A stretch of DNA of 49,813 nucleotides from Parabacteroides acidifaciens (lineage in GTDB: Bacteria; Bacteroidota; Bacteroidia; Bacteroidales; Tannerellaceae): contig NZ_QREV01000037.1 in the NCBI RefSeq assembly GCF_003363715.1, positions 1-49,813 on the forward strand. Direction: 5' to 3'. A program made the translations under genes and the position numbers. Shown here one piece after another: positions 19,493-47,797 of this stretch (position 1 is its first letter; the number at the start of each line of letters is the position of its first letter). The notes beneath the pieces are model-generated. The model ran no database searches and had not been told where the DNA came from. It saw only the letters and a list, made by a program, of their open reading frames with translations.

Positions 19493-20494
19493 CTACAGGA
19501 CGCGGGTTTGGGGAAATTGCAAGGTAAAAGTCGTCCCTTTCTCTTCTTCCGAAACAACGGTAATACTTCCCCCGTGGCGGTTCATGATCTGCCGGCAAAC
19601 GCTCAGACCGATGCCCGAACCTCCCTGCTTAGTCGTAAAGAACGGGACAAAGACCTTATCCATCGCTTCCGGCACGATACCGCAGCCATTGTCGGAAACG
19701 GTGATAACCGGAACCCCTTCACGCCTGAAAGCATTCACCCGTACTTCCGGAAAGGAACAATCTTTACAGGCTTCGGCTGCATTCTTCAATAAATTAATAA
19801 GCACCTGCTCGATCATCGAGCGGTCGGCATAAACCCGCAAATCAGTCGGACGGACAGAAAATGAAAACGAGACATCTCCGGCAGGATACAAGCCCCGCAA
19901 ATCGTCGAACAGGGTGGAAATCGGAAACAGTTGCTGTGTAGGGGCCGGAATACGTGTCAGTTTCCGGTAGTTCTCGACGAAATCCAACAAGCCTTTACTC
20001 CGGCGGTGTATCGTCTGCATAGCCTGAAGCATGATTCCGTAATCCCGCTCATTCAGTCCGTTGGATGCAGCCCGCTCCGTCACCGTCTCCGACAAAGAGA
20101 TAATCGGAGCGATCGAGTTCATGATCTCGTGTGTGAGAACCCGGATCAATTTCTGCCAAGCCTCCGTTTCCGCCTCCGACACCACTACATTATATAAACG
20201 GGTACGAAAAGCGGACAACGCTTCATTCATGGCACGCGTCAGGCTGGCCTCCGCACCGCCCGCCGACGGGACCGGAAAAGAAAGGTTCATATCTCCATAC
20301 CTGATATTGGCGATCAGGTGCTCCATCCGCTGCAACATTTTCCGTTGATCCAGATAGAGGGAAAAAGCAATACCCAACAAAATCAGAAAGCACATGACCG
20401 CCGTAAAATACAATCCTTTCAATAGCAGAAATGCAATCGAAAGAGACAACAATATCAACAATCCTATTTTCAGAAAAAGAACATAGCGTTTCAT
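19493..20494 (-). CDS. Membrane sensor histidine kinase, NtrB/NtrY-like, partner of the adjacent sigma-54 activator
   Basis: A 333-residue kinase. Two closely spaced membrane helices (about 8-28 and 31-48) leave almost no periplasmic loop, so it likely senses a membrane or cytoplasmic cue. The phospho-acceptor is His122 (RVLTHEIMNSIAPI). The ATPase domain has LINLLKNAAEAC, VSDNGCGIVPEAMDKVF, FFTTKQGGSGIGLS. The start overlaps the end of the upstream NtrC-type regulator by 4 bases, so the two are translationally coupled and form a cognate pair. It probably phosphorylates the regulator in response to envelope stress or a drug-like signal; that part is inference. Confidence 0.88.
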   Translation of the reverse strand: MKRYVLFLKIGLLILLSLSIAFLLLKGLYFTAVMCFLILLGIAFSLYLDQRKMLQRMEHLIANIRYGDMNLSFPVPSAGGAEASLTRAMNEALSAFRTRLYNVVVSEAETEAWQKLIRVLTHEIMNSIAPIISLSETVTERAASNGLNERDYGIMLQAMQTIHRRSKGLLDFVENYRKLTRIPAPTQQLFPISTLFDDLRGLYPAGDVSFSFSVRPTDLRVYADRSMIEQVLINLLKNAAEACKDCSFPEVRVNAFRREGVPVITVSDNGCGIVPEAMDKVFVPFFTTKQGGSGIGLSVCRQIMNRHGGSITVVSEEEKGTTFTLQFPQTRVL

Positions 20495-21858
20495 AGGCCC
20501 AGTTTATCCAGTTTCCGGTACAGGGCAAAACGGGTAATCCCCAACAGTTCGGCAGCACGGGTGATATTCCCGTCGGCACGGCGCAGGGCGCGTTCGATCG
20601 CTTCTTTCTCAAGCACGCTCAGATTCAGTTCATCGGACAGTTCCCCTTTTTTATGAACGGGAGCCGGATGAAGCATAAAGTTTTCAGGCTTCAGCATGGA
20701 GCCGTCCGACAGGATAACAGCGCGCTCGATGGCATGCTGCAACTCGCGGACATTACCGGGCCAGGCATAACTTTGGAGTTTCGTTTTTGCATCCCGGGTA
20801 AGCCCCGTCAGTTTCTTCTTATACTTGCGGGCATAGCGGTTCAGGAAATGGTCGGCCAACAACAGGATATCATTGCCCCGTTCCCGAAGCGGCGGGATAT
20901 GCAGCTCGATCGTATTGATGCGGTATAGCAAATCCTGGCGGAACGTCCCTTCCTGCACCATTTCCCGGATATTCATGTTCGTCGCGGAAATCAAGCGGAC
21001 ATCGATCGGCACGGAACGGGTCGCTCCCAACCGCAGGATCTGTCTTTTCTCGATAGCCGTCAACAGTTTCGCCTGCATCGGCAGACTCAGGTTACCGATC
21101 TCGTCCAGAAACAAAGTACCCCCGGAGGCCACTTCCATACGTCCGGGCTTATCGCGCCGGGCATCCGTAAAAGCACCTTTCTCATACCCGAACAGCTCGC
21201 TCTCGAACAGCTGTTCCGGGATGCTTCCCAAATCGATACTGACAAAAACCTGGCTGCTTCGGGGAGAATGATGGTAAAGGGCGCGGGCAATCAGATCCTT
21301 CCCGGTTCCGTTCTCACCCAAGATCAGGATATTGGCATCCGTATCCTTCAGCTTGGAAACAGTAGCAAACAGTTCCTGCATGACATCGCTCTCGCCTATA
21401 ATCTCAAAACCGGTCTCTTCGGAACTTTCCAACACCTCGACGCGCTGTTTCAGCGTGTTGACCTCCGTACGGCTTTCACGCAGTTTCAAAGCAGCCGAAA
21501 GAGTTGCCAACAGTTTTTCTTTTTCCCAGGGTTTCGGGATGAAATCCGTAGCACCGGCTTTTATGGCACGTACGGCTTTTTCCGTATCGGCATAAGCCGT
21601 AATAAAAAGGACCACCGCATCCGGATCAGCCGCCTTTATCTTTTCCAGCCAGAAAAAGCCTTCCTGCCCACTGATTGCATCCCGCCGAAAATTCATATCC
21701 AACAGGATGACATCCGGCTGGAAAGTCGACATAAAATGTTCGATCCGCTCGGGCTGTGTCGTCACCTTCACCTGTTCGACATATGGCTCCAACAACAGAT
21801 TTAAGGCGAAGAGGACATCTTCGTTATCATCGATGATTAAAATCTTTCCGTTCTTCAT
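20491..21858 (-). CDS. NtrC-family sigma-54-dependent response regulator of the transporter island
   Basis: A 455-residue activator. The receiver domain has Asp54 as acceptor (DVILLDMNF). A linker leads to the AAA+ domain with Walker A GENGTGKD (181-188), the sigma-54 contact loop GAFTDA (228-233, where the usual form is GAFTGA) and Walker B GGTLFLDEIG (246-255). The arginine-finger region and sensor II look intact (FRQDLLYRIN; WPGNVRELQHAIERAV). The C-terminal Fis-type helix-turn-helix is at about 428-455 (ITRAAELLGITRFALYRKL). It should bind the TGTGC-N6-GCACA pairs found upstream of itself and of three sigma-54 promoters in this window. Expression probably starts at a minus-strand TATCTTTG box (21891-21884). 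Confidence 0.92.
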   Translation of the reverse strand: MKNGKILIIDDNEDVLFALNLLLEPYVEQVKVTTQPERIEHFMSTFQPDVILLDMNFRRDAISGQEGFFWLEKIKAADPDAVVLFITAYADTEKAVRAIKAGATDFIPKPWEKEKLLATLSAALKLRESRTEVNTLKQRVEVLESSEETGFEIIGESDVMQELFATVSKLKDTDANILILGENGTGKDLIARALYHHSPRSSQVFVSIDLGSIPEQLFESELFGYEKGAFTDARRDKPGRMEVASGGTLFLDEIGNLSLPMQAKLLTAIEKRQILRLGATRSVPIDVRLISATNMNIREMVQEGTFRQDLLYRINTIELHIPPLRERGNDILLLADHFLNRYARKYKKKLTGLTRDAKTKLQSYAWPGNVRELQHAIERAVILSDGSMLKPENFMLHPAPVHKKGELSDELNLSVLEKEAIERALRRADGNITRAAELLGITRFALYRKLDKLGL

Positions 21859-21883
21859 ATTTTACCAATCACTTCAATATCGA

Positions 21884-21891
21884 CAAAGATA
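21884..21891 (-). promoter_or_regulatory. Candidate -7 box of the NtrC-type regulator gene
   Basis: Minus-strand TATCTTTG fits the Bacteroides -7 consensus and lies 25 bases before the regulator start. The upstream palindromic site at 21914-21929 covers the place where the -33 element would be, which would allow autoregulation. Confidence 0.5.
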
Positions 21892-21913
21892 GTGATTATA
21901 AGAACGGGATGTA

Positions 21914-21950
21914 TGTGCGCTTATGCACGTTTTTTGTGCGCGAGAGCACA
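21914..21950. promoter_or_regulatory. Paired palindromic activator sites upstream of the regulator gene
   Basis: Two 16-bp sites, TGTGCGCTTATGCACG (21914-21929) and TGTGCGCGAGAGCACA (21935-21950), start exactly 21 bp apart. They are the best palindromes of the family found at three sigma-54 promoters here. No sigma-54 -24/-12 element lies at the matching distance on either strand, so these sites probably serve autoregulation of the regulator gene. Confidence 0.7.
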
Positions 21951-22124
21951 ATGTATCTGCATAAAAAGCGGGAAGGTCCTGTAGGAATCAAGATCCTCTG
22001 CAAAGCAGTTTACTAATCCAGCACTTCATGGGAATATAGTGCCGTACAGGAAGGGACAACCCGGCAGATAGAGTGAGTCATACAGAATGTGCGCCTCTTC
22101 CATACTTACCTGCTATTCATGTCA

Positions 22125-23355: not shown

Positions 23356-23364
23356 CGATTATCC

Positions 23365-23401
23365 TGTGCACATCCGCACGTAGATTGTGCGCTTATGCAC
23401 A
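23365..23401 (+). promoter_or_regulatory. Paired activator sites of the TolC-operon sigma-54 promoter
   Basis: TGTGCACATCCGCACG (23365-23380) and TGTGCGCTTATGCACA (23386-23401) are 16-bp palindromes spaced 21 bp. Their centres lie near -110 and -88 from the predicted sigma-54 start site, the usual place for NtrC-type enhancer sites. The second is almost identical to a site upstream of the regulator gene. Confidence 0.8.
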
Positions 23402-23455: not shown

Positions 23456-23470
23456 TGGCACATTATTTGT
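23456..23470 (+). promoter_or_regulatory. Sigma-54 promoter of the efflux operon
   Basis: TGGCACATTATTTGT keeps the invariant GG (23457-23458) and, 10 bases on, GT in place of the consensus GC (23469-23470). Predicted transcription start is about 23482, which is one base before the only plausible start codon of the TolC-type gene, implying a leaderless or nearly leaderless message. Confidence 0.7.
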
Positions 23471-23482
23471 CTTTCATCAGGC

Positions 23483-24949
23483 ATGAAACAGATTTTATCC
23501 ATACTTATATGTGTATTGTTCCCACTACAACTATGGGGGCAGAAAACACTTACCCTGACATTGAGCGAAGCAATCGAAATGGCGCGCCAACATTCACCGG
23601 AGGCTATTGCCGCCCGGCATGCTTTCAGGGCCTCTTACTGGAACTGGCGCTCTTTCCGGGCCAAACAGCTGCCAAGCCTGACGCTGACTTCCGATCCGAG
23701 CCTGAACCGCTCCATCCAGTCGGTGACGCTTGAAGACGGTAGTGATAAATTCGTACACCGGAACCAATTGTCGGTCGACGCCGGGCTGGAAATCCAGCAG
23801 AATATCGCCCTGACAGGCGGTACGGTGTTACTGAAGACCGGACTCCAACGGTTAGATATGTTCACCGACAACGTCTCATCATATAAAAGTACTCCGGTGG
23901 TCATCGGATATGAACAAAACCTGTTTGGTTACAACGACCTCAAATGGGAACGCCGGATCGAGCCGATTAAATTCGAAGAAGCGAAAAAAGCTTACATCGA
24001 AACACTCGAACTGGTAGCCGCCTACACAACCAACCGCTTTTTCAACTTGGCAAGCGCACAGACCTCGTTAGAAATCGCGGAATATAATTTTGCATATGCC
24101 GACACGCTCTACCGCTACGCGCAAGGACGTTACAACATCGGGACAATTACTGAAAACGAAATGCTCCAACTCGAACTCAACAAGCTGACCGAGCAGACCA
24201 ACCGCCTGAACGCGCAGATAGACGTGGACGATTACATCCAGTCGCTACGCAGCTACTTAGGTATTTCGGAAAACATCACGCTGGCGGTAATCCCGGACGA
24301 CAGCATTCCCCGCTTCACGGTCAACGTCGAAGAGGCCATGCAATTAGCTTTCCAGAACAATCCGGATATCAGCGCTTTCGAACGCCGCCGCCTGGAAAGC
24401 GAAAGCTCCGTTGCCGAAGCAAAAGCCAACCGGGGATTCAAAGCCGAACTATACGCCCAGTTCGGTTTGACACAGAGCAACGAGAAACTGAAAGAGTCCT
24501 ACCGCAACCCGATGGACCAACAGTTAGTGACACTCGGCATCCGTATTCCGATCCTGGACTGGGGCGTAGGAAAAGGACGGGTCAAGGTGGCCAAAAGCAA
24601 CCGTGACAAGGTCTATACCCAATTGGAACAGGAACGGATGGATTTCGAACTGAATGTCGCCAAGATGGTCAAGCAATTCAACCTGCAGGCCAACAAAGTC
24701 ATGATTGCAGAGAAAACCGACCAGACGGCACAACGCCGCAACGACGTGGCCCGCCGGCTTTATCTGCTCGGTAAATCAAGTATCCTCGACCTGAATGCCG
24801 CCATCTCAGAAAAGGATAACTCACGCCGGGCGTATATCTCGGCCTTGTATAATTACTGGAGTCTTTATTATGGCCTCCGCAGCCTGACGGGCTACGATTT
24901 CGAGAAGCAGATTCCGATTGTTGAGGATTATGAACTATTGCTAAAATAA
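23483..24949 (+). CDS. TolC-family outer-membrane efflux channel
   Basis: A 488-residue outer-membrane channel protein. The start at 23483 is chosen because it begins a normal signal peptide (MKQILSILICVLFPLQLWG); the frame stays open for 32 codons upstream but that stretch contains the activator site and the sigma-54 promoter. The mature protein has the two-fold TolC pattern of long helices (LSEAIEMARQHSPEAIAARHAF; NRFFNLASAQTSLEIAEYNF; QRRNDVARRLYLLGKSSILDLNAA). The channel should form a trimer spanning the outer membrane and periplasm, docking with the adaptor encoded 12 bases downstream. It heads the operon that continues with the adaptor and permeases. Confidence 0.88.
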   Translation: MKQILSILICVLFPLQLWGQKTLTLTLSEAIEMARQHSPEAIAARHAFRASYWNWRSFRAKQLPSLTLTSDPSLNRSIQSVTLEDGSDKFVHRNQLSVDAGLEIQQNIALTGGTVLLKTGLQRLDMFTDNVSSYKSTPVVIGYEQNLFGYNDLKWERRIEPIKFEEAKKAYIETLELVAAYTTNRFFNLASAQTSLEIAEYNFAYADTLYRYAQGRYNIGTITENEMLQLELNKLTEQTNRLNAQIDVDDYIQSLRSYLGISENITLAVIPDDSIPRFTVNVEEAMQLAFQNNPDISAFERRRLESESSVAEAKANRGFKAELYAQFGLTQSNEKLKESYRNPMDQQLVTLGIRIPILDWGVGKGRVKVAKSNRDKVYTQLEQERMDFELNVAKMVKQFNLQANKVMIAEKTDQTAQRRNDVARRLYLLGKSSILDLNAAISEKDNSRRAYISALYNYWSLYYGLRSLTGYDFEKQIPIVEDYELLLK

Positions 24950-24961: not shown

Positions 24962-26212
24962 ATGGATAAACCTATTGCTAAGAAACCCGTTTATTACCGC
25001 TACCGCTGGCATATTGCCGGAGGAGTCGCCTTTGTTGCCCTTCTTGTTTATGTAGGGATCGCCGCATCGGGAGGCAGAAAACTCCGTACCGAAGCCGAGA
25101 ACCTGATTATCGGTGAAGCCACCAGCGACAAATTCCTGGAATATGTGGATGTGGAAGGCGTCGTTCAGCCCATCCTTACCATCCAGATCAATGCCCGCGA
25201 GGCTGGCAGCGTAGACCGTATCATTGCCGAAGAAGGAACAATGATGAGCAAGGGAGACACGATACTGACCCTCAGCAATCCCGATCTGATCCGCACCATC
25301 GAGGATCAGCAGGATGAATGGGAAAAGCAGTTGATCTCCTACCAGGAGAAAGAGATCGAAATGGAACAGAAGAGCATCGACCTGCAACAAAAGACCTTAG
25401 AGACAACCTACGAACTGAACCGCCTCAAGAAAAGCTATGCCCTCGACGAGGAGGAATTCCACATGGGTGTCAAAAGCAAGGCGCAGTTAGAAGTAGCCCG
25501 CGACGAGTTCGACTATAAGACCCGCAGTACCGCCCTGCAACTGGAAGGCCTCCGCCACGACAGCGCCGCCACCATCCTACGCCGGGAATTGATGAAGAAC
25601 GACCTCGAACGGGAACGAAAGAAGTTCGACCGCGCCCGGGAGCGCATGGAAGACCTGATTGTCCGCGCTCCCCTCTCCGGCCAGCTCAGCTTCGTCAAAG
25701 TGACGCCCGGCCAGCAGGTGCAAAGCACTGAAGCGATCGCAGAGGTCAAAGTGCTCGACCAGTTCAAGATACACACCTCCCTCAGTGAATATTATATCGA
25801 CCGGATCACAACCGGGCTTCCCGCCACCATCACCTGGCAGAGCAAGAAGTTCCCGCTGCGGATCACCAAAGTCGTTCCGGAGGTGAAAGACCGTAACTTC
25901 GATGTCGACCTGGTCTTTACCGAGGCAAGCCCCGAAAATGTCCGCATCGGCAAAAGCTTCCGTGTCCAGATCGAGCTGGGACAACCGGAAGAAGCCCTTG
26001 TCATCCCGCGTGGCGATTTCTTCCAGACCACCGGCGGACAATGGATCTACAAGCTGAACGAATCCGGCACAAAAGCCCGCAAGACCCCGATCAGCATCGG
26101 CCGACAAAACCCGCAGCAATACGAAATAACCGGCGGCCTCCAACCGGGCGACAAGGTGATTGTCACGGGATATAGTACCTTTGGCGACGCGGAAGAATTG
26201 ATTTTGAAATAA
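24962..26212 (+). CDS. HlyD/MacA-type periplasmic adaptor subunit
   Basis: A 416-residue membrane-fusion protein. One N-terminal membrane anchor lies at about 18-36. The lipoyl-like halves flank a long coiled-coil hairpin (about 95-230, rich in Glu, Lys and Gln, EIEMEQKSIDLQQKTLETTY). The second lipoyl half reads VRAPLSGQLSFVKVTPGQQV, followed by a beta-barrel and membrane-proximal domain (VIPRGDFFQTTGGQWIYKL; LQPGDKVIVTGYSTFG). It should bridge a MacB-like inner-membrane permease to the TolC-type channel. It is the only adaptor in the island and so probably serves several of the six permeases that follow, the first of which starts 14 bases later. Confidence 0.87.
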   Translation: MDKPIAKKPVYYRYRWHIAGGVAFVALLVYVGIAASGGRKLRTEAENLIIGEATSDKFLEYVDVEGVVQPILTIQINAREAGSVDRIIAEEGTMMSKGDTILTLSNPDLIRTIEDQQDEWEKQLISYQEKEIEMEQKSIDLQQKTLETTYELNRLKKSYALDEEEFHMGVKSKAQLEVARDEFDYKTRSTALQLEGLRHDSAATILRRELMKNDLERERKKFDRARERMEDLIVRAPLSGQLSFVKVTPGQQVQSTEAIAEVKVLDQFKIHTSLSEYYIDRITTGLPATITWQSKKFPLRITKVVPEVKDRNFDVDLVFTEASPENVRIGKSFRVQIELGQPEEALVIPRGDFFQTTGGQWIYKLNESGTKARKTPISIGRQNPQQYEITGGLQPGDKVIVTGYSTFGDAEELILK

Positions 26213-26226: not shown

Positions 26227-28629
26227 ATGAAAATTATACTATTAGCATTACGATCGCTGACACGTTTCAGACTTTACAGTGCCATCAACATTATGGGGTT
26301 GGCGCTGAGTCTGGCGTGTGTCATTACTTTATCCCGATATATTTATCAGGAAACGACTGTCGATCATTTCCACAAACATTTGGACCGCCTGTATTTTACG
26401 ACGCTCCAATATCAGAATTCCCCGATGATACGTTTTTCCGGTAGCTCCAATATGAATAACGAACCCGATTACAAGGAGCCGTTAGAAGATATTGCGATTG
26501 AACAAAGCACGACATTCATCCCCATGCAGCAATATGATATCTACTCTGAAAACAGGAAGTTCACAGCAGACCTATTCGCTGTAGACACCAGCTTTCTGCA
26601 AATACTGGATTTTCCTGTTCTCGCCGGAAACAGAAAAACGTTGATGCTTAAACCGGAAAGTGCCGTAATCACCCGGGAAATGGCACAAAAACTATTCGGG
26701 AATGAGAACCCGATCGGCAAAACGATATCTTTCACATTCGGGAATCCTGTTACAATCGAAGGGATCATCGGGACTCCTGCAGGAAAAAGCACGCTGCATT
26801 TCGACATACTCATATCTGAATCGATGCAGAAAAAGTGGTCAAGAATGCCTCAAAGTATCGCTCTGCTTTATCCGGGAAGTGACCTGAAACAGATAAACAA
26901 ACGACTGGATTATTATATGTATATGAAAGCTGGAGACCGCTACCAACAGTACCAGTTCTTCCCCATGAAGAAAATATACTTCGACCACACCATACATGAT
27001 CTCAATTTATTCAACAAAGGGAATAAGACAAATATCCAAATACTATCGATCGTCACTCTTTTAATCCTGATCATAGGATTCGTCAACTTCACGAATATTT
27101 ACACGGTACTCATACAAAAACGGTCACGTGAATTCGGAATGAAAAAGGTATTCGGAGCTAAACGTTTCCATCTGTTCGGACAGATTTACATAGAAAATAT
27201 ATTTATCATAGCTTGCGCCCTTTTCGTCGGATGGGTATTTATCGAGTTGACACAAAATTATTTGAGTAATCAATGGGGAATATCCCAATCAAACGATTGG
27301 CGGCTGAATCTTTCACTGATGCTTATCTTAATCGTGCTTCTTCCGATAGTGACAGCCTCTTATCCTTTCTTCAAATATGGGTACAGCACTCCTATCCGGT
27401 CATTACAATCCGTCAGCAAAAAAGGTAACTCGGTCCTTTCAAGAAGCCTTTTCCTGATTATCCAATACGGCATATCGATCTCGCTCATTATCGTATCGTT
27501 GTTTTTCATCAAACAATTGCATTTCATGTTGAACTACGACAATGGATACCAAACGAAAGATATCATCAAAACTCAATTCCTCCGTAGTAATTATGCCCTG
27601 GATGACACCTACGAACAAGCAACTGCAAAGAATGAGAAACAAAAACAACTCGACAATATCATCACGACAAAGATGAATGAATCTCCTTTGTTTACAGCTT
27701 GGGCCTACGGAGAAAGTCCTTACGAATATGGAGAACCAAATATACAATTCGAATTTCAGGGGAAAAAGCAAATGGTTGTTTATAACACCGTAGACGAAAG
27801 ATACATGAAGATATACGATCTTCAAACAGTTGAAGGACGCAACTGGAACGACTCTATCGACCATTTCGGCACATATGACCTGATTATTAACGAAACAGCA
27901 AAAAAGACTTTTGGCATTACCGATATTGCTACAGCCAAATTACAACCTGAAAACAGATTATGGTGGAGCTCCGATATGCCGGATATGGATAAGAATCCCG
28001 CTTATAACATTGTCGGTGTAGTTAAAGATTTTCAAATCGGACATCTGTCTCAGGCCACACTTCCGCTCGTTTTCGCTTACGACATAGGATATCCTTATAG
28101 CCGTTTGACGGCACATATCGTTCCGGGCAAGCGGCAGGAAGCAATCCTTTTCCTGCAAAAACTGCATGAAGAAACTGTCGGAGGCGAATTTATCTATTCT
28201 TTTGCAGAGGATGAGATAAAAGCCATTTATAAAGAAGACAAGAAAGTAACCAGTATCTATACGGCATTTGCATTGATTGCAATCCTAATCTCCTCATTGG
28301 GGCTGTTCGGACTATCGCTGTTCGATGTACAGCAACGCTACCGGGAAATAGCCATCCGCAAAGTCAACGGGGCAACTACAGCCATCATCATGCAAATGCT
28401 GCTCCGAAAATACTATAAGCTGCTCGCTATCGCATTTGTCATAGCAACTCCTGTCTCCTGGCTCGCCATCCACAAATACCTGGAAAACTTTGCACACAAA
28501 GCCAGTATATCCTGGTGGTTGTTTGCCGTCGCCATACTGATTACAGGTAGTATTTCCCTGCTTACATTGATATGGCAAACCCGGAGAGCCGCACGGATGA
28601 ATCCGGCGATAGCGATTAAGAACGAATAA
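26227..28629 (+). CDS. ABC transporter permease 1, MacB/FtsX type with two FtsX domains
   Basis: An 800-residue inner-membrane protein without an ATPase domain. A first membrane helix (about 18-40, INIMGLALSLACVITL) precedes a MacB-like periplasmic region to about 270. A first FtsX block with three helices follows (about 275-390; REFGMKKVFGAKRFHLF). A helix near 410-435 (SLFLIIQYGISISLIIV) leads to a second periplasmic region, and a second FtsX block ends the protein (about 675-795; REIAIRKVNGATTAIIM; C-terminal NPAIAIKNE). The two half-permeases in one chain imply that one polypeptide could form the whole channel. It diverges from permeases 2-6, lacking their HYIKIAFRNL start. The ATPase must come from elsewhere, most likely the gene at 47123. 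Confidence 0.85.
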   Translation: MKIILLALRSLTRFRLYSAINIMGLALSLACVITLSRYIYQETTVDHFHKHLDRLYFTTLQYQNSPMIRFSGSSNMNNEPDYKEPLEDIAIEQSTTFIPMQQYDIYSENRKFTADLFAVDTSFLQILDFPVLAGNRKTLMLKPESAVITREMAQKLFGNENPIGKTISFTFGNPVTIEGIIGTPAGKSTLHFDILISESMQKKWSRMPQSIALLYPGSDLKQINKRLDYYMYMKAGDRYQQYQFFPMKKIYFDHTIHDLNLFNKGNKTNIQILSIVTLLILIIGFVNFTNIYTVLIQKRSREFGMKKVFGAKRFHLFGQIYIENIFIIACALFVGWVFIELTQNYLSNQWGISQSNDWRLNLSLMLILIVLLPIVTASYPFFKYGYSTPIRSLQSVSKKGNSVLSRSLFLIIQYGISISLIIVSLFFIKQLHFMLNYDNGYQTKDIIKTQFLRSNYALDDTYEQATAKNEKQKQLDNIITTKMNESPLFTAWAYGESPYEYGEPNIQFEFQGKKQMVVYNTVDERYMKIYDLQTVEGRNWNDSIDHFGTYDLIINETAKKTFGITDIATAKLQPENRLWWSSDMPDMDKNPAYNIVGVVKDFQIGHLSQATLPLVFAYDIGYPYSRLTAHIVPGKRQEAILFLQKLHEETVGGEFIYSFAEDEIKAIYKEDKKVTSIYTAFALIAILISSLGLFGLSLFDVQQRYREIAIRKVNGATTAIIMQMLLRKYYKLLAIAFVIATPVSWLAIHKYLENFAHKASISWWLFAVAILITGSISLLTLIWQTRRAARMNPAIAIKNE

Positions 28630-28640: not shown

Positions 28641-31046
28641 ATGCTATTACAACACTACATTAAAATTGCATTTCGTAATCTGTTAAAATATAAGGTTCAG
28701 TCAATCATCAGTATCGTCGGGTTAGCTATCGGGCTGATCTGTTTTACTTATGGCTGGAACTGGTATCGGTATGAGACCTCTTATGACGGATTCTATCCAC
28801 AGGCTTCCAATATTTACAGAGTGTACGGGATAGATAAACAAACCGGGAAGAAGGTAGAACAGTTGCCACTTATACTGGCACGGAAACTGAAAAAGGATTT
28901 TCCGGAAGTGAAAGAGACGACACAGATCTATTCCAAATTCGGCTCGACTTTCCACTACGGAAAGACAAGGCTCGAAGACCCGGACGAAGAGTTTATAGAT
29001 GAACAGTATTTTCATTTCTTTCCGCGCCCGGTGATTTGCGGCAAGAAAGACGATATCCTGAAAACACTGGATGAAATAGCTTTGACCCGCTCTTTTGCAG
29101 TGAAGTATTTCAAAACACCGGAAGAGGCTTTAGGTAAAACACTACGGAACGGATACCGTGAACATATTACGATCGTATCCGTCCTCGAAGATGCCCCTAA
29201 AAACTCAATGATGCAAACCGATGTGTACGAGCTCGACAAATTCGACCACGAACGGGAAAACCGTATCACAGAAGAGATGCAATGGAAGCAACAAAGCACA
29301 ATAATATATCTGATGCTGGAACCCACGACCAACATCCAGGCATTCGAGAAAAAGATCAACGCTTATATAAGCGAACACGATTACAACCGCTCTTTACGGC
29401 TGAAGCTGGCACGCCTGACGGAGGTCCGCCATACGTTCGGAAGCGAATTGACTTTCAACCTCTCCTATATCCGGACTTTCACGATTACCGGGCTACTCTT
29501 GCTGCTCTGCGTATTCTTTAACTTCACAAACCTGCTTCTCAACCGTATCTATTTACGAAACAAAGAAATGAAACTGAGAAACGCAATCGGGGCGGACAAA
29601 AAGAATATGATCTTCCAATTGTTATTGGAACTGACACTACTCGTCTGGATCAGTTTTCTGCTTGCCTGCTGCCTGTTGGAAATAACAGCCGGAGGGTTCT
29701 CCCGTATCTTCGAGACGACATTGCAGCAGGATGTACTGCTCAGCCATTTATGTATCATCACCGGTCTTAGCTGGCTCTTGCTGACAGGAATCTGCCTGCC
29801 ACTTTTCCTGCGCTTCGTCCGGACTCCTTCCCTACTGGTTTCAGGGGGTATTGCACCTACCCGGAAAAGTACTTTCCGTAAAACAAGCATGACACTCCAG
29901 TTGGGCATCTGTATTTTCTTCCTGATGAGCACGTTTATCATGTCCCGGCAAATCTCCTTTATGAAGCATAAAGACTTGGGGTTCAAAAAGGATGGTTTGA
30001 TTCAACTTGCAATGACATTCAACGACCGGGAAGGCATAAGTCGGGAGATATCGACGCTCGCCATTTTAAAAGGATTCACGCAGGCCGGGATATTCTCTAT
30101 CACGCATGAACCACAGACTCAGAACGAGGTTGAATGGGATGGCAAATCATTGGATTTCGCTCCGAACTTCCAGGTGCTCCAAGTCGGCAGTAACTTCCCC
30201 GAAGTATTCGACATACCGATAGTAAAAGGCCGGTTTGTCGATGAAGCTGACATGATATCGGGACACAACCCAAGATTCCCCTGTACGAAAGCAGTTATCA
30301 ATGAAGAAGCCGCCCGCATCATGAATGTGGGCGATCCGATCGGGAAAAAAATCAGCGTATGGGACTACTCCACCTATAGCGACGGGACAAGAGGGCGTGC
30401 AGAAATGGAAATCGTCGGTGTTATCAAAGACTTTCAGTCAGCCAGCCTGCGAAACCCGATCCTGCCACAAGTCATCGTGATTGATGGTAGCAAATGGACC
30501 AGTTATGCTTATTATGCCCGTACCGAATCCGGAAAAGAAAAAGCGGCGATCAAGGCGATTCGGAATGTCTTTAAGAAGCACGCCAAGCAAGGCGACCCAT
30601 CTACTTGCGAAGTGCAGTCCATAAACCAGATACTCGATCAGCTCAGCACCTCCGAGAATGCCAGTCTGCAACTGTTCACGTTGCTGGCCGTGTTCTGTAC
30701 ACTGATCTCCATTTTCGGACTTTACTCTATTTCGTCCAGTAATATGGAACAGCGGCGAAAAGAGATTGCCGTCCGGAAAGTAATGGGAGCTTCGGCCCGG
30801 ACGATCGTCGAGATGTTCTTCCGGGAATATCTGGCCATTGTACTGATAGCCAACCTGCTCGCCCTACCGCTCGCCTGGCTGTTCATGCAAAACTGGTTAC
30901 AGCAGTATGCTTACCGGAGCAGTGTGCAGCCCTGGATGTATATAGCAATCATCCTGTTTACAACTATCATTATTATATGTACGGTATTGTATCAGACAAT
31001 CCGGGCGGCACGGACCAATCCGGCGGAAACGATTAAATCGGAATAA
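28641..31046 (+). CDS. ABC transporter permease 2, MacB/FtsX type (group A)
   Basis: An 801-residue double-FtsX permease. It has the N-terminal signature HYIKIAFRNLLKYKVQS, the first helix, then a YDGFYPQASNIYRVYG motif common to group A members. FtsX block 1 is at about 275-390 (NKEMKLRNAIGADKKNMIF), a central helix at about 415-438, and FtsX block 2 at about 680-800 (RRKEIAVRKVMGASARTIV), ending NPAETIKSE. Gap to permease 1 is 11 bases and to permease 3 is 14 bases, so all are in one operon. Function as for the other permeases: mechanotransmission-type efflux or lipoprotein-type extraction; the substrate is unknown. Confidence 0.86.
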   Translation: MLLQHYIKIAFRNLLKYKVQSIISIVGLAIGLICFTYGWNWYRYETSYDGFYPQASNIYRVYGIDKQTGKKVEQLPLILARKLKKDFPEVKETTQIYSKFGSTFHYGKTRLEDPDEEFIDEQYFHFFPRPVICGKKDDILKTLDEIALTRSFAVKYFKTPEEALGKTLRNGYREHITIVSVLEDAPKNSMMQTDVYELDKFDHERENRITEEMQWKQQSTIIYLMLEPTTNIQAFEKKINAYISEHDYNRSLRLKLARLTEVRHTFGSELTFNLSYIRTFTITGLLLLLCVFFNFTNLLLNRIYLRNKEMKLRNAIGADKKNMIFQLLLELTLLVWISFLLACCLLEITAGGFSRIFETTLQQDVLLSHLCIITGLSWLLLTGICLPLFLRFVRTPSLLVSGGIAPTRKSTFRKTSMTLQLGICIFFLMSTFIMSRQISFMKHKDLGFKKDGLIQLAMTFNDREGISREISTLAILKGFTQAGIFSITHEPQTQNEVEWDGKSLDFAPNFQVLQVGSNFPEVFDIPIVKGRFVDEADMISGHNPRFPCTKAVINEEAARIMNVGDPIGKKISVWDYSTYSDGTRGRAEMEIVGVIKDFQSASLRNPILPQVIVIDGSKWTSYAYYARTESGKEKAAIKAIRNVFKKHAKQGDPSTCEVQSINQILDQLSTSENASLQLFTLLAVFCTLISIFGLYSISSSNMEQRRKEIAVRKVMGASARTIVEMFFREYLAIVLIANLLALPLAWLFMQNWLQQYAYRSSVQPWMYIAIILFTTIIIICTVLYQTIRAARTNPAETIKSE

Positions 31047-35808: not shown

Positions 35809-35833
35809 AAATATTTTTACATAAGGAAAAAAC

Positions 35834-35968: not shown

Positions 35969-36023
35969 CTGCTATAAGCTATCTCATACACAAGGAACAA
36001 CTATTCCATTGACAGGCAGGCAT

Positions 36024-36164
36024 TAATTCACGGATAGGCAGGGAGTAAGAATTAGGTCTACACCGTATCGCAAATAGGATGTACAGGGTATCGTCTATAC
36101 AATGTACATGGTATTCACGATACCCTCTACACCGTATCACAACTTTCTGCCTATCCGTGAATTA
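36024..36164 (+). repeat. 18-bp inverted repeat enclosing four 23-bp tandem units
   Basis: A perfect 18-bp inverted repeat (TAATTCACGGATAGGCAG at 36024-36041, complement at 36147-36164) encloses four units that begin TACACCGTATC, TACAGGGTATC, TACATGGTATT and TACACCGTATC at 36059, 36082, 36105 and 36128, exactly 23 bp apart. A nested perfect 10-bp inverted repeat joins 36085-36094 and 36117-36126. No open frame. The block lies just upstream of the activator sites of permease 5. Confidence 0.75.
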
Positions 36165-36220
36165 CTTCCTGCTTATCTTCGGATTAGTGCATAAGGAGCT
36201 TCGAAATAGTTTGTTCGCAT

Positions 36221-36257
36221 CGTGCGGATAAGAACGCCTTTCGTGCGGAAACACACA
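36221..36257 (+). promoter_or_regulatory. Paired activator sites of the permease 5 sigma-54 promoter
   Basis: CGTGCGGATAAGAACG (36221-36236) and CGTGCGGAAACACACA (36242-36257) are spaced 21 bp. They are weaker palindromes than the other pairs but keep a GTGC half-site and the same spacing. Centres lie near -110 and -89 from the predicted start. Confidence 0.65.
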
Positions 36258-36312: not shown

Positions 36313-36327
36313 TGGCACGTCTTTTGT
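36313..36327 (+). promoter_or_regulatory. Sigma-54 promoter of permease 5 and 6
   Basis: TGGCACGTCTTTTGT has the -24 GG (36314-36315), a strong TGGCACG block and, 10 bases on, GT at -12. It differs from the ATPase-gene promoter at only two positions. Predicted start is about 36339, leaving a 71-base leader. Confidence 0.8.
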
Positions 36328-36409: not shown

Positions 36410-38782
36410 ATGCTATCACACTACATCAAAGTTTCCTTCCGGGAACTCCTGAAATACCGGACACAATCCGTTGTCAGCATCATTGGGCTGGCAATCGGAT
36501 TCACTGCTTTCATATTAGGAGGTTATTGGCTGTGGTGGGAAACACATTTCGATAATTTCCACCCGGAAGCCGACCGGCTCTACTGCCTGACGACGGAAGG
36601 ACTTGTCAAACGGGCCAATGGAACAAACTCGGATCTGGACCAACTGCACGTCGACGACCGGAAGGAGTTGTTTCAGTTGCTTCCCGAAATCGAAGCATCC
36701 TGTTCCTTCAATCATCTCAGCTTCACACTCAAACAAAAGGATGAGACAATCTCTTTGCACGGCATGGAAAGCGACCATTCTTTCTTCGATCTCTTTTGGG
36801 CGGACTTCATAGCAGGGACTTACAAAGGTAAATCGCCTGATGGCAGTAACGTCATACTGACGGAACGGACTGCCCGCAAGCTGTTCGGGACAACAGATTG
36901 CGTGGGGAAAGAAGTGGCGCTGGACGAAGACCTCCGTCCCGTTGTCGCAGGCGTCATCCGGAACTATCCGGATAATACCGACCTGCTGTTCGACTTCCTG
37001 TTGATCAGATCGCCAAGACCCAATCACGTAAAACGGATGACGACCTACGTACGCCTCCAAAAAAATGCAAGCATCATACAGGTACACACCAAACTGGCGC
37101 GTTACAAAAGCCGCGCCGACAAGAAATGGAAAATACATCTGTTGACCGCTCCGGAAGTCCATCTCCGTTGCCATCCCGAACTGACGGATCGCATCCGGAA
37201 CATTCACATCCTGGCATTGGCTGGCGCAATGGCTTTCCTGAGCGCCCTTATCAACCTGCTGGTCCTCTTCATCGGACAGCAGCAACGGAAACAGCAGAAG
37301 AACCGCACATACCTTTGTGTCGGAGCTTCAACAAAAAGCATGATGCTAAAAGGATGCACGGAGTTGGTATTACCGTTGCTGATCGCTTTCCTAATTGCTT
37401 TCTGCCTGATCGAGAGTATTTACCCTTACTACGAAAGTTATACGACCTGGAACCGGTACGGCATCTACGAAGATGTCAGCCGCCATCTTTCGCGCGTCTC
37501 GCTTTTCGGTAATATGATATCAATAGCAGGCACCAGCATATTGGCATTCCTTCTTGTTTGCTATTATCCGATACGGAGTCTATTGGAACACAAGATACAA
37601 AAGCCCGTACTCTTTAAACGGAGCTTGATTGTCGTACAGATATTTATCGGTTCACTCTTTTTCATCACCTCTTTAGGATTATTCCGGCAGTTACATTTCA
37701 TCCTGTCGAAAGATAAGGGAATCGACTACAGCCAAGTCATCCAGGTAGATTTGGGATTCAGCACTGCCTACCAGACAGACCTGAGCGTCCTAAAGCCGGA
37801 AATGGCGAATCATCCGTACGTGAAAGGAGTTACATTTACCTGTGGAAACGCTCCGGTCTTTACGGAGCAGGGAGACTGGTACGGCTCTTTTTATACCCAC
37901 TTCTGTTTTGACCCGGCCGAACCGGACCCGAACCGCAGTGATCCGGTACTCGTTGCCGACAAAGACTTCTTTTCTTTCTTCGGTTTACAACTGCAATCCG
38001 GGAGTTGGCTTACCGATGCAAATGCTTATGGTTTTCTGGTGAATGAAACTTGTTTGCAGACGTTAGGATATGCCGACCTGTTTGAACGTTCGGTCTACAA
38101 TCCGGAAAACAAGCAGGCAAGTCCGCTCAAAGTCTGCGGCGTCATACACGATTATATGTATGCACCCATGCAGTATCCGGTATTACCTCTGTTCTTCACG
38201 ACTTTCGACAATCCAATGGTAAAAGGGTTTGAACCGGCTTATCTGTTCTATATCCGTTATGCGCCGGGACATAAGAAAGAGGTCTTGGAACATCTCCGCG
38301 AAGTGACCTCGCATATTCAGAATGACAATATAAACCGCAATAAAATGTTCACGGAACTGTCCGACTTGGTAGATACGTTCAACCGACCGGAGAAAGTGAT
38401 CTTTACCATTTTCAGCATTCTCTCACTGGTCTGCATCCTGATCTCAACCTTCGGCATTTATTCGTTGGTCAGCCTTTCCACCGAACAACGGAGGAAAGAG
38501 ATTGCGATCCGCAAGGTGAACGGGGCAACCTTCTATCACATCCTGCAACTGTTCTTCCGGGAATATTTCCTGTTGGTCACGCTGGGAAATGCTTTTGCCC
38601 TCCCGGTCGGTTACCTGTTGGCTAAACGATGGCTGGAAACATATGCCAACCACACGACTCTGCCGGCATGGCTGTTCCTCCTGGTCTTCATTATCACCAG
38701 CGGAATCGTCCTTCTCTCTATTTTCCAACAGGTTAAAAGGGCCGCCGCAACCAATCCGGCAGAAGTTATTAAAACTGAATAA
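36410..38782 (+). CDS. ABC transporter permease 5, MacB/FtsX type (group A)
   Basis: A 790-residue double-FtsX permease. It begins LSHYIKVSFRELLKYRTQS, then the first helix (SIIGLAIGFTAFILGGYW) and the group A motif FDNFHPEADRLYCL. FtsX block 1 is at about 265-385 but the coupling segment is divergent (QQQRKQQKNRTYLCVGAST), less like the usual EIGLRKV form. A central helix lies at about 403-425. FtsX block 2 has RRKEIAIRKVNGATFYHIL and ends NPAEVIKTE. It is the first gene of a second transcription unit driven by its own sigma-54 promoter, with permease 6 following after 19 bases. Confidence 0.86.
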   Translation: MLSHYIKVSFRELLKYRTQSVVSIIGLAIGFTAFILGGYWLWWETHFDNFHPEADRLYCLTTEGLVKRANGTNSDLDQLHVDDRKELFQLLPEIEASCSFNHLSFTLKQKDETISLHGMESDHSFFDLFWADFIAGTYKGKSPDGSNVILTERTARKLFGTTDCVGKEVALDEDLRPVVAGVIRNYPDNTDLLFDFLLIRSPRPNHVKRMTTYVRLQKNASIIQVHTKLARYKSRADKKWKIHLLTAPEVHLRCHPELTDRIRNIHILALAGAMAFLSALINLLVLFIGQQQRKQQKNRTYLCVGASTKSMMLKGCTELVLPLLIAFLIAFCLIESIYPYYESYTTWNRYGIYEDVSRHLSRVSLFGNMISIAGTSILAFLLVCYYPIRSLLEHKIQKPVLFKRSLIVVQIFIGSLFFITSLGLFRQLHFILSKDKGIDYSQVIQVDLGFSTAYQTDLSVLKPEMANHPYVKGVTFTCGNAPVFTEQGDWYGSFYTHFCFDPAEPDPNRSDPVLVADKDFFSFFGLQLQSGSWLTDANAYGFLVNETCLQTLGYADLFERSVYNPENKQASPLKVCGVIHDYMYAPMQYPVLPLFFTTFDNPMVKGFEPAYLFYIRYAPGHKKEVLEHLREVTSHIQNDNINRNKMFTELSDLVDTFNRPEKVIFTIFSILSLVCILISTFGIYSLVSLSTEQRRKEIAIRKVNGATFYHILQLFFREYFLLVTLGNAFALPVGYLLAKRWLETYANHTTLPAWLFLLVFIITSGIVLLSIFQQVKRAAATNPAEVIKTE

Positions 38783-38801: not shown

Positions 38802-41159
38802 ATGTTAAAGCACTACTTAAAAATAGCCATACGGCAAATACTCAAAAACAAAGTCCAATACTTGCTTTCCATCATTGGAATCGCTATCGGGTTGCTCTGT
38901 TTCAGTATGACCTCCTATTACATCAGGAGATTCAACAATCAGTTCACTGCTTGGGAAAATAGTGACAGGATAGCCAATATTTATATCAAGTCGACAAAGA
39001 ACAGTTATGAACAACCTTACATACCGGGCAAGGAGCTACAAGCATTGATCAGTAATCCTGTAACCGGAATAGAAAAGATTGCCTACTCATATGGCTTTAC
39101 AAAGGCTAATATTACTCTTTGTAAAGCCGGACAAAAAGAGGTTCCGTTCCAGTGTAGTTTTCTGAACATCACTGCAGACTTTCCTGCGATCTTCAGCATG
39201 AGAACTCCGGAAGGACAGACACCTATATTAAAACCGGGAGAGGCATGGATAAGCGAATCATCTGCAAAGAAAATGTTCGGCGATGAAACGCCTCTTGGTA
39301 AAACACTCTATTTCAGCCAGGCAGACAACGATACATCCGCAATCCGATACTCCACGATCAGCGCAGTCATCCGGGATTTACCGGATGGAGTACAGGAAAA
39401 GAAAGACCTCTACTTCCTGGAAACCTCGACAATAAACCCGGAAAGGAGATATGAGAATCCGGTTGTCTTGCTGGATAAGGATGTTTCGAGTGCAGAAATA
39501 AACCAACGGCTGCAAAAACAAATACCGGCTTTCGGAAACGAAAACGACAATTACCTTGCAGTACGAACCTTAAAAGAGGAAATGCACAAACCGGACAATC
39601 TCAGCGCAACACTTCTTATTCCGGTGATCGGAGCCTTGATACTGGTTGCAGCCATGATCAATTTCCTCAAGTTCTGTATCCAATCGTTCTATAACCGGAC
39701 ACGTGAACTCAGCCTGCGGAAATGCTTGGGGTCCGATTCGACAGGACTGTTCTGTCTGCTTTTTAGTGAAATCGCTATTCTCTTTATTCTATCGGCTTTA
39801 GTAAGCCTTGCTTTGATCGAATGGGTCATTCCCGTTTATTATCAATATCTGGCAAGCCAAGAACTGATCGACGAGGATGTATTTATCCACACACCTACCC
39901 TGATTTGGCAGGAGATGGAATACTTATGCATTCTACTTATCATCTGCCTGCTGATTGCTACCTGGGCTATTTTCCGTATCAGGCGGCTTTCGCTGACAGA
40001 AGGGATAAAAGGGACCAGACGAGAGAAGCATGGCGTACGCAACTTTATGCTGGGCGTGCAACTGTTCATTTGTTTCCTCTTTGTTGCCGGTGCAATCGGA
40101 CTTGGGAGTATCCATAACCTTGTAGACGAGAAAAGAAATAACACATTGACCGAAGAAGAATGCACCCGTATCTGGAAAATAGAACTTTGGGAACCGCAAT
40201 TGCAAGGCCATGAAGAAGAAATAGTTTCCCACATCCATGCACTTGCGGGTGTAAAAGATATTTTATCGGAGAATATAGGGGGCTACCCGGATTACATAAC
40301 GAAAAAGGAAGAGGCCGTACACGGCATACAACATGTTGTCAGTAGCAACTATCCAGACTTTATGAACCTGAAGATAGAAGGAAGAATGCCACAAGCGCCC
40401 AATGAGATAGCCGTTTCACGCTCACTGATCTGGGAACTGGAAAAAGACGGAGAGAAGAATCCTTCATCCGTACAACTGGGAGACAAGACTTACCAGATCA
40501 CAGGCATATACGAACAAATGCCATTCGAACCGCTCTACACTAAAGAACAGATCGTAAAGGCCAACCAATATCACCGCTTCACATTCCTTTCTGTACCTGA
40601 CAAGCCGAACTACAGCACTGTCTACGTCAAATGTGTACCCGGCCAAGAACAAAACGTCCGGAAAGAGATACTCCGTATTGTTCACAACCGCCTGCCGGAA
40701 TCCATTCCTTTCGAATTGACGACCAAGCAGGAAGAACGTTTCCGGTATAACGGAGGCTCGGAACTGATGAGCAATATGTTCACTTTGCTCTCTGTCATCA
40801 GTTTAATCATAACTATCCTGGGAATCTATTCCGCCATTACGCTTGATACGCACAGCCGTCAAAAGGAAGTTGCCATCCGGAAAATCAATGGGGCAGGTCC
40901 CCGCGTAATAGCACTCTTATTCGGGAAGTTGTACATCCGCCTGTTGATTATTGCGGCTATTCCTTCTTTAGCGATTGTCTATTTATTCCTGCATGCATTA
41001 ACCGACTCCGAGGCAGTCATTTCTCCGGGATGGCTGAATAATCCTCTTATATGGTTAGAGATTATCTTTCTGACAACAACAATCGTATGCGTAACCGTCG
41101 CCTATCGCATCTGGCTGATTTCACGATTGAATCCGGCAGAAACAATCAAAACTGAGTAA
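38802..41159 (+). CDS. ABC transporter permease 6, MacB/FtsX type (group B)
   Basis: A 785-residue double-FtsX permease. N-terminus LKHYLKIAIRQILKNKVQY and first helix SIIGIAIGLLCFSM. Like permease 3 it lacks the group A YDxF motif (it has RRFNNQFTAWENSDRIANIY) and has SAITLDT before the second coupling helix (RQKEVAIRKINGAGPRVIA). FtsX block 1 contains RELSLRKCLGSDSTGLF. C-terminus NPAETIKTE. The order A then B in 5-6 repeats that in 2-3, pointing to duplication of a two-gene unit. It is the last permease, followed by a short non-coding stretch and the dispersed repeat copy B. Confidence 0.85.
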   Translation: MLKHYLKIAIRQILKNKVQYLLSIIGIAIGLLCFSMTSYYIRRFNNQFTAWENSDRIANIYIKSTKNSYEQPYIPGKELQALISNPVTGIEKIAYSYGFTKANITLCKAGQKEVPFQCSFLNITADFPAIFSMRTPEGQTPILKPGEAWISESSAKKMFGDETPLGKTLYFSQADNDTSAIRYSTISAVIRDLPDGVQEKKDLYFLETSTINPERRYENPVVLLDKDVSSAEINQRLQKQIPAFGNENDNYLAVRTLKEEMHKPDNLSATLLIPVIGALILVAAMINFLKFCIQSFYNRTRELSLRKCLGSDSTGLFCLLFSEIAILFILSALVSLALIEWVIPVYYQYLASQELIDEDVFIHTPTLIWQEMEYLCILLIICLLIATWAIFRIRRLSLTEGIKGTRREKHGVRNFMLGVQLFICFLFVAGAIGLGSIHNLVDEKRNNTLTEEECTRIWKIELWEPQLQGHEEEIVSHIHALAGVKDILSENIGGYPDYITKKEEAVHGIQHVVSSNYPDFMNLKIEGRMPQAPNEIAVSRSLIWELEKDGEKNPSSVQLGDKTYQITGIYEQMPFEPLYTKEQIVKANQYHRFTFLSVPDKPNYSTVYVKCVPGQEQNVRKEILRIVHNRLPESIPFELTTKQEERFRYNGGSELMSNMFTLLSVISLIITILGIYSAITLDTHSRQKEVAIRKINGAGPRVIALLFGKLYIRLLIIAAIPSLAIVYLFLHALTDSEAVISPGWLNNPLIWLEIIFLTTTIVCVTVAYRIWLISRLNPAETIKTE

Positions 41160-46821: not shown

Positions 46822-46919
46822 ATTAGTTGTCCGCCGGGCGCCGAACGATCGTTCGCTTGGTGGCGGACGATCGTTCACTGGGCGGCGGACGATCGTTCGG
46901 CGCCAAGCGGACGACTAAT
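46822..46919. repeat. Three 22-bp tandem units of CGATCG palindromes within a 34-bp inverted repeat
   Basis: Units CGAACGATCGTTCG (46842), CGGACGATCGTTCA (46864) and CGGACGATCGTTCG (46886) start exactly 22 bp apart. Arms 46822-46855 and 46886-46919 are inverted repeats matching at about 30 of 34 positions (outer ATTAGTNGTCCGC, inner GGCGCCGAACGATCG). The block lies upstream of the ATPase gene's activator sites, in the same relative place as the 23-bp array before permease 5. Confidence 0.75.
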
Positions 46920-46986
46920 AGAACGCTTAGAACGGGCTAATGAACAGGCAAGAAAAGGTTAATCCATACCGAGATGTAAGCTAAAG

Positions 46987-47023
46987 TGTGCTTATCCGCA
47001 CGGCGGCAGTTCGGATACGCACA
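46987..47023 (+). promoter_or_regulatory. Paired activator sites of the ABC ATPase sigma-54 promoter
   Basis: TGTGCTTATCCGCACG (46987-47002) and AGTTCGGATACGCACA (47008-47023) are spaced 21 bp, with centres near -109 and -88 from the predicted start. Spacing and distance equal those at the TolC promoter, although the gene lies over 20 kb away. Confidence 0.75.
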
Positions 47024-47077
47024 ATACAGGAAGTATCTTCAATCGGCAACTTTCTATATACAAGACATTTATATCTA

Positions 47078-47092
47078 TGGCACGACTTTTGC
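47078..47092 (+). promoter_or_regulatory. Sigma-54 promoter of the ABC ATPase gene
   Basis: TGGCACGACTTTTGC is a near-perfect -24/-12 element: GG at 47079-47080 and GC at 47091-47092 with 10 bases between. Predicted start is about 47104, leaving a 19-base leader before the ATG. Confidence 0.85.
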
Positions 47093-47122
47093 CATAGATC
47101 TTGTAAACAAATTTAGCACACC

Positions 47123-47797
47123 ATGATTAAAACTGTTGCATTAGAAAAGATCTTCCGTACGGAAGAGGTGGAGACGTTAGCGTTGAACCAAGTTAACATA
47201 GAAGTAAAAGAAGGGGAGTTTGTGGCCATAATGGGGCCTTCCGGTTGCGGTAAATCTACGTTGCTGAACATCTTAGGATTGCTGGACAACCCGACGTCCG
47301 GGGAATATTTCCTGAACGGGATCGAGGTTTCCCGATACACGGAAGCTCAACGTACAAAACTGCGTAAAGGAATTATCGGTTTCGTCTTCCAGAGTTTTAA
47401 CCTGATAGACGAGTTGAATGTTTACGAGAACATCGAGCTGCCTTTGCTCTATATGGGTGTTTCGGCCGGCGAACGGAAGAAGAAAGTACAGGAAGCGATG
47501 GAACGGATGGCAATCGCGCACCGCGAAAAACACTTCCCGCAGCAACTTTCCGGCGGTCAGCAACAGCGTGTCGCAATCGCCCGCGCCGTAGTTGCGAATC
47601 CGAAGTTGATCCTCGCCGATGAACCGACCGGTAACCTGGACAGTAAAAACGGACAGGAAGTAATGAACCTCCTCAACGAGCTGAATAAGGAAGGAACAAC
47701 GATCGTCATGGTTACGCACAGCCAGCACGACGCCGGCTTTGCTTCCCGCATCATAAACCTTTTCGACGGACAGGTCGTGACAGAGACGGTTATTTAA
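47123..47797 (+). CDS. ABC transporter ATP-binding protein, MacB/LolD-type, likely serving the six permeases
   Basis: A 224-residue ATPase. Walker A GPSGCGKST is at 38-46, the Q-loop in FVFQSFNLIDEL near 88, the signature LSGGQQQRVAIARA near 140-153, Walker B LILADEPTGNLD near 161-172 and the switch His in MVTHSQHDA near 198. It is of the MacB/LolD/FtsE group, which pairs with FtsX-type permeases. It has no permease of its own beside it. Its sigma-54 promoter and paired sites match those of the TolC operon and permease 5, so it is the predicted energy source for all six permeases. The next gene follows after 48 bases and could be on the same message. Confidence 0.92.
   Translation: MIKTVALEKIFRTEEVETLALNQVNIEVKEGEFVAIMGPSGCGKSTLLNILGLLDNPTSGEYFLNGIEVSRYTEAQRTKLRKGIIGFVFQSFNLIDELNVYENIELPLLYMGVSAGERKKKVQEAMERMAIAHREKHFPQQLSGGQQQRVAIARAVVANPKLILADEPTGNLDSKNGQEVMNLLNELNKEGTTIVMVTHSQHDAGFASRIINLFDGQVVTETVI

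Follow-up and report, generated by a model that had tools for sequence, protein, structure and literature searches.

A conserved operator-promoter arrangement predicted to place scattered exporter operons of Bacteroidales under one NtrC-type regulator

Regulators of the NtrC family, as in glnA-type activation, combine a receiver, an AAA+ domain and a Fis-type helix-turn-helix (HTH) domain and act from paired sites near -100 on promoters with -24 and -12 elements. In Bacteroidia, the accessible part of a 2025 paper reports that sigma-54 is enriched at COG0577 permeases and claims the first evidence tying this sigma factor to the FtsX-like permease family (PMC12316311), so that a general sigma-54/permease link is already published. 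For flavobacteria, the available text of PMC9723704 describes a sigma-54 regulon of protein quality control, envelope stress and gliding motility, and in the accessible part of a 2011 survey the terms bacteroid-, efflux, ABC and permease do not occur (PMC3162934). Here we analysed 49,813 bp of DNA from Parabacteroides acidifaciens (contig NZ_QREV01000037.1, positions 1 to 49,813; "the window" denotes this whole stretch), in which an NtrC-type regulator gene and the operons of a predicted tripartite exporter carry matching pairs of sites. The operator-promoter arrangement is real and widely conserved, and comparison of sequences leads us to favour, with considerable confidence, a sigma-54 regulon in which one regulator addresses scattered exporter operons through rigid site pairs. 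All the glnA-type features named above recur in the window, which differs from the glnA layout, as we know it, by its exporter targets, its exact 21-bp pairs and a pair at the regulator's housekeeping promoter. With the COG0577 enrichment it shares permease class, sigma factor and bacterial class; that work, in its accessible text, makes a statistical claim at the COG level, without regulator, operator, geometry or scattered regulon (PMC12316311). Searches of open-licence literature turned up no account of the site code, and an earlier note on this DNA knew of no description of the arrangement.

Every family that makes up a MacAB-TolC-like exporter is represented, by one channel, one adaptor, six MacB/FtsX permeases and one separate DarD/MacB-type ATPase. 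By profile, the set resembles the darobactin exporter DarBCD (NF038007, NF038008, NF038010) in its separate ATPase, FtsX permease and adaptor, and differs in having six permeases with one adaptor; it resembles ADOP (TIGR03434) in its MacB/FtsX permeases of about 800 residues without an ATPase domain of their own. The curated DarBCD cut-offs were missed (DarD 290 of 375 bits, DarB at best 94 of 700, DarC 144 of 450), as was the ADOP cut-off of 622 (81-195 bits, three permeases scanned of the six), and we therefore do not file the parts as members of these families; from their sequences, the parts scanned may work like a darobactin exporter or ADOP. A short-loop, two-helix kinase in the company of FtsX-type permeases also recalls the BceRS-BceAB modules (PMC10314905, in its accessible part), from which the window differs by its NtrC/sigma-54 output and tripartite Gram-negative exporter. 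By analogy with Bce modules, one might guess that the kinase senses the state of the permeases. The genes and elements lie in the window as follows.

19493..20494, minus strand: histidine kinase gene (HATPase_c by Pfam, the rest of the sequence by eye)
20491..21858, minus strand: NtrC-type response regulator gene (Pfam and sequence)
21884..21891, minus strand: TATCTTTG, regulator-gene -7 box, separated from the site pair by 22 bp
21914..21950, no strand assigned: regulator-side site pair (site starts 21914 and 21935, 21 bp apart)
23365..23401, plus strand: channel-operon site pair (site starts 23365 and 23386)
23456..23470, plus strand: channel-operon sigma-54 promoter (TGGCAC-N5-TTGT)
23483..24949, plus strand: TolC-type outer membrane channel (OEP; start taken as ATG 23483)
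24962..26212, plus strand: HlyD/DarC-like adaptor (profile matches)
26227..28629, plus strand: permease 1, ADOP/DarB-like (MacB_PCD and FtsX domains)
28641..31046, plus strand: permease 2
31061..33454, plus strand: permease 3
33484..35808, plus strand: permease 4
36221..36257, plus strand: degenerate site pair of the second permease operon (site starts 36221 and 36242)
36313..36327, plus strand: sigma-54 promoter of the second permease operon (-12 side TTGT)
36410..38782, plus strand: permease 5 (profile matches)
38802..41159, plus strand: permease 6 (profile matches)
46987..47023, plus strand: ATPase-operon site pair (site starts 46987 and 47008)
47078..47092, plus strand: ATPase-operon sigma-54 promoter (-12 side TTGC)
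47123..47797, plus strand: DarD/MacB-type ATPase subunit (profile matches)
47846..49348, plus strand: first part of a thioredoxin-fold protein gene (TlpA-like by eye)

The earlier note had placed sigma-54-like promoters at 23456, 36313 and 47078, each preceded by two sites of the form TGTGC-N6-GCACA with starts 21 bp apart and centres near -88 to -90 and -109 to -111, and had seen the same pair beside the regulator gene. We found all three promoters at these positions, the 21-bp spacing in every pair and the regulator-side pair at 21914/21935, and the centres fit because the sigma-54 elements start 70 bp (23456), 71 bp (36313) and 70 bp (47078) after the start of the second site. The promoters agree with the sigma-54 consensus (GG at -24, GC at -12, 10 bp between), perfectly so at 47078, the -12 box being GT rather than GC in two of the three (23456 and 36313), and the pair at 36 kb is degenerate, with 7/10 and 8/10 consensus letters. 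A scan for a sigma-54 box at the expected distance from the regulator-side pair of the window gave none. Neither single sites with up to two mismatches (17 found, 15.5 expected from shuffles) nor sigma-54-like strings alone (145 found, 137 expected) are enriched in the window; the case therefore rests on their combination. We searched for this combination with a composite pattern of two sites and a sigma-54 box, allowing up to three mismatches and a gap of 70 or 71, with the reversed pattern as control; an earlier, badly built composite had been dropped (41 matches, 31 in its control). The organism's own 5.1-Mb genome holds three places with gap 70 and one with gap 71, and three of these four are inside the window; the fourth, C132:9976, lies 181 bp from a contig end, and a site similar to it stands before a permease gene in a related genome (G011, L101). 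The genome encodes rpoN (PF04552 on contig C13, 179 bits).

Across 38 genomes of the genus, the composite pattern gave 36 matches (23 with gap 70, 13 with gap 71) and its reversed control none in any genome at either gap. Exporter genes follow 31 of the 36 (channel 11, permease 12, ATPase 8), an outcome that favours the earlier note, which had proposed such a genome-wide scan. Two of the other five precede six-bladed propeller genes (L088 in G007 and L095 in G023, DUF5128 by Pfam), which stand directly behind a GTGC-type pair and sigma-54 box, and three were kept in the count as other or undetermined, L105 and L114 being opposite readings of pairs already counted and L107 lying at a contig end. 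Propeller genes thus occur behind the operator in these two loci and also beside the regulator in the window, where one (TolB_like) lies between regulator and channel and has, by eye, a housekeeping-like promoter of its own. The regulator, taken as present at 67% identity or more and an E value of 1e-120 or better (a cut chosen after seeing the list), occurs in 14 of the 38 genomes, and a composite match was found in 13 of these 14 versus 1 of the 24 others (Fisher's exact p=3.5e-8, shared ancestry not corrected). In G007 the regulator homologue reads as two overlapping frames and may be broken; the operators there are intact (L046, G007:C6:30000-49900).

The strongest support for a remote ATPase within the regulon comes from operators before ATPase genes at a distance of about 39-41 kb from the regulator (in G008 and G037) or, in the draft genomes G012, G021 and G036, on a contig other than the regulator's, the operator-bearing ATPase of G036 being 75% identical to that of the window. 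In the likeliest of the alternatives, the sites are true enhancers serving mainly regulator autoregulation and the channel operon, and permeases 5 and 6 and the ATPase answer to a paralogous regulator. Paralogous regulators do exist in the genome, and degeneracy marks both the 36-kb and the 47-kb pair, which keep 7-9 of 10 letters; against it, the other regulator classes adjoin distinguishable half-sites, and in the eight genomes where ATPase-side pairs were found these fit the GTGC pattern within three mismatches. We consider this alternative unlikely.

Orthologous loci, which the earlier note had suggested comparing, keep the sites, both within the genus and in a wider set of 80 regulator loci (the best 80 of 96 relatives, 65-93% identical, from a scan of named genomes). 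The set spans Bacteroides, Phocaeicola, Parabacteroides, Mediterranea, Proteiniphilum, Porphyromonas, Dysgonomonas and other genera, and the locus was found, for example, in Phocaeicola vulgatus ATCC 8482 and Parabacteroides gordonii. The weight matrix used was built from 50 sites of nine genus genomes, and only three of the 80 loci (L146, L147, L149) come from genomes that fed it, so that for the other loci the training set has no bearing on the result. With a threshold of 12 bits, 188 sites were found in 1.35 Mb; all 77 pairs of sites at most 60 bp apart were spaced 20-22 bp, 74 of them exactly 21. Behind 79 pairs with 21-bp spacing, the sigma-54 box begins at 71 (57 pairs), 70 (11), 69 (3) or 72 bp (1), which puts 68 at 70 or 71, and seven have none. 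A pair (20-22 bp) with a box of at least 7/10 letters at 69-72 bp is present in 67 of the 80 loci, and in 61 under the strict rule (21 bp, box at 70 or 71). The 80 stretches contain a channel gene in 67 cases, at least one permease gene in 59 and an ATPase of more than 60% identity in 22 (DPP, NUDIX, u1, u2, TBDR and hybrid-kinase matches were omitted from the neighbour table). Because the ATPase gene lies near the channel genes in these 22 loci, in several within the exporter gene row, the scattered layout of the window can be taken, on weak grounds, as a derived state. Comparison thus establishes the sites, their geometry, their conservation and their co-occurrence with the regulator.

Several observations weigh against the favoured regulon. 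The genome encodes four more ATPases of the same type, 58-75% identical, and the window's remote ATPase may therefore not be the only one used. By the scan, 13 of the 80 loci are without pair and promoter: in L150 both pair and box lie on the opposite strand, in L151 the pair is not accompanied by a sigma-54 box, and L153, L182, L200, L218, L221 and L224 end within 500 bp of the regulator; no pair was found in L152, L210, L213, L214 and L220 despite at least 2.5 kb of upstream sequence, and these five have no channel gene either, so that a pairless regulator goes with an exporterless one. Within the genus, G028 has the regulator and no composite match, and G024, a draft of about 620 contigs, has a match before a channel gene without a regulator at 67% or more. 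An order-wide scan of 295 genomes, with gap 70 only, gave matches in 5 of 11 regulator-bearing and 3 of 284 other genomes (reversed control, none in the 295); of the 14 matches outside the own genome, eight stand directly before a channel or permease gene and six do not clearly do so. Finally, the regulator loop that contacts sigma-54 reads GAFTDA instead of GAFTGA, a variant that can presumably be active. The interpretation of the earlier note, co-induction of the exporter genes by this kinase/regulator pair, is supported by site conservation and by the exporter-gene targets; it needs amending as to the number of circuits, of which there seem to be several, as to sole use of the remote ATPase, and as to the regulator-side pair, which looks autoregulatory.

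The regulator has a receiver, a sigma-54 AAA+ domain with its lid, and a Fis-type HTH, all above cut-off (PF00072, PF00158, PF25601, PF02954), and the last four bases of its gene also belong to the kinase gene. Near its N-terminus the kinase shows, by eye, two hydrophobic stretches separated by hardly any loop, and the window kinase and five homologues read in this way may lack an extracytoplasmic sensor domain; the H-box of the window kinase we take to be NtrY-like. Three Bacteroides/Phocaeicola kinases (L160, L165, L183) have an extra stretch before the H-box, PAS-like by eye, that is missing from the window kinase and from the Parabacteroides and Proteiniphilum homologues compared. A regulator-side pair is present in all nine genus loci scanned, with a conserved TA(T/C)CTTT(G/A) -7 box of the regulator gene just past it, which we assume to be of the Bacteroidetes housekeeping type. 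Of the 80 loci of the wider set, 58 carry a pair no more than 450 bp from the start of the regulator gene; 56 of these have TAnnTTTG at 21 or 22 bp from the edge of the site and the remaining two have TATCTTTA in that place, so that the site abuts the -33 region of the regulator promoter. This placement implies feedback of the regulator on its own promoter. NtrC represses at its own promoters, and repression is our preferred reading of the sequence here; estimated site positions near -41 and -62 would suit activation as well. In G020 and many Bacteroides loci a single pair lies between regulator and channel gene, where it can, by its position, serve both directions. The abutting pair and the GAFTDA loop would also suit elements that are conserved and mainly repressive, the regulator acting on housekeeping promoters and sigma-54 activation being minor, an explanation we regard as very improbable given that the exporter-side boxes keep their fixed distance in 68 of the 79 pairs, with seven lacking a box.

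The window circuit seems to be one of several parallel circuits, since the paralogous regulators adjoin sites of the same geometry with other half-sites. The own genome encodes further regulators at 62, 49 and 47% identity, each adjoined by a kinase and two of the three near an adaptor gene; the recognition helix reads ITRF in the window regulator, ITRT, VSRQ and ISRQ in the three paralogues and LTRG in two relatives. The LTRG group goes with TGTC-N8-GACA pairs, 21 bp apart with sigma-54 at 70, whose composite gave four matches in 4 of the 38 genomes and none in the control, and in three of the four the distance to a regulator with 50-51% identity to that of the window is 84 bp. The ISRQ group goes with 17-bp sites of TGTCnAA type, again 21 bp apart, with sigma-54 at 72; their composite gave 94 matches in 29 of the 38 genomes (including seven that read an already counted pair a second time) and no control matches, and without the sigma-54 box the pattern gave 0-3 control matches per strand and genome. 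This second circuit occurs at nine places in the own genome, where the sigma-54 box stands at 72 or 73 bp. At six of them permease or ATPase genes follow, and at one an adaptor gene on contig C1 follows after about 1.4 kb; the other two stand before a serine-hydrolase-like lipoprotein and a small secreted protein (names by eye), so that this circuit is not limited to exporters. At L267 (G000:C102:21500-26600, site 2565) a TGTCnAA-type pair and a perfect sigma-54 box precede a 134-residue protein with a signal-like start, possibly a cargo or inducer of the second circuit. The promoter of the paralogous regulator on contig C101 is an exception to the 21-bp rule, with half-sites like the TGTCnAA class at a spacing, by eye, of 23 bp. 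For the 61-62% identity group we put forward no clean half-site class, since of its five loci two yielded weak and drifted pairs in a weight-matrix scan and three yielded none. Over these few regulator groups, half-site letters correlate with the recognition helix, as though following it. A CRP/FNR-type regulator binding the palindromes, with incidental sigma-54 boxes, would explain half-sites that resemble the CRP consensus (TGTGA-N6-TCACA-like) and positions at the regulator promoter that are presumably classic for CRP, and is nonetheless very hard to credit when 68 of 79 pairs have the box 70 or 71 bp away, the sites co-occur with the NtrC regulator, and their letters change beside regulators with other recognition helices.

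For the favoured sigma-54 regulon we infer the following course of events. The kinase would phosphorylate the NtrC-type regulator, which would bind both operator sites, set on one face of the DNA by their spacing of 21 bp or two helical turns, and drive sigma-54 polymerase by DNA looping, the -24 element starting about 62-64 bp past the centre of the nearer site. Activation is predicted at each exporter operon, as delimited here (channel-adaptor-permeases 1-4, permeases 5-6, ATPase); since an operator pair marks each of them, the scattered genes would still act as one regulon and be induced together. At the regulator gene the pair abutting the -33 region of the housekeeping promoter would let the regulator control itself, probably by repression. 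The products would presumably assemble into one pump, predicted to export some peptide-like or lipophilic substrate. A search for an NVEALA-type peptide cargo found no match in the loci that it covered.

Around the channel gene, GTG 23387, the listed start of its open reading frame, falls within the operator; the sigma-54 start site, estimated from the -12 box (window 23456-23483), lies a few bp before ATG 23483, which suggests a transcript with no leader or almost none. Ahead of permease 5, the gap at 35800-36190 contains, by eye, repeats of CCGGCA type and of TACACCGTATC type, and tandem palindromic blocks of gacgatcgttcg type lie between the NUDIX and ATPase genes (46833-46915). Other palindromic tandem arrays stand upstream of paralogous regulators in G012 and G037. 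Relatives too have a thioredoxin-fold homologue 3' of the ATPase gene. In the window this gene occupies two frames (47846-49805), near the contig end, and its G011 homologue is a single frame of 651 residues; either a natural frameshift or an assembly error would account for the two-frame state.

A wider reading, to which we give not quite an even chance, is that Bacteroidales run several mutually insulated sigma-54 circuits for orphan-permease exporters on one rigid geometry (21 bp and a fixed distance to -24), with half-sites matched to the recognition helix. The parts would be operator-addressed and hence movable, the regulator-side pair would be a two-way switch that restrains the regulator's own housekeeping promoter while driving sigma-54, and a kinase without a sensor domain would read the permeases. 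Bacteroidales are dominant gut bacteria, and as far as our searches show little has been published on their sigma-54 targets. One circuit is predicted here with its regulator, operators, promoters and targets, and a second of the same design is present in 29 of the 38 genus genomes. The operator code proposes a regulator for each scattered ATPase or permease, which gene order alone cannot do, and exporter assembly, signal and insulation between paralogues become directly testable. Most interesting, in our view, are the parallel circuits with changed half-sites.

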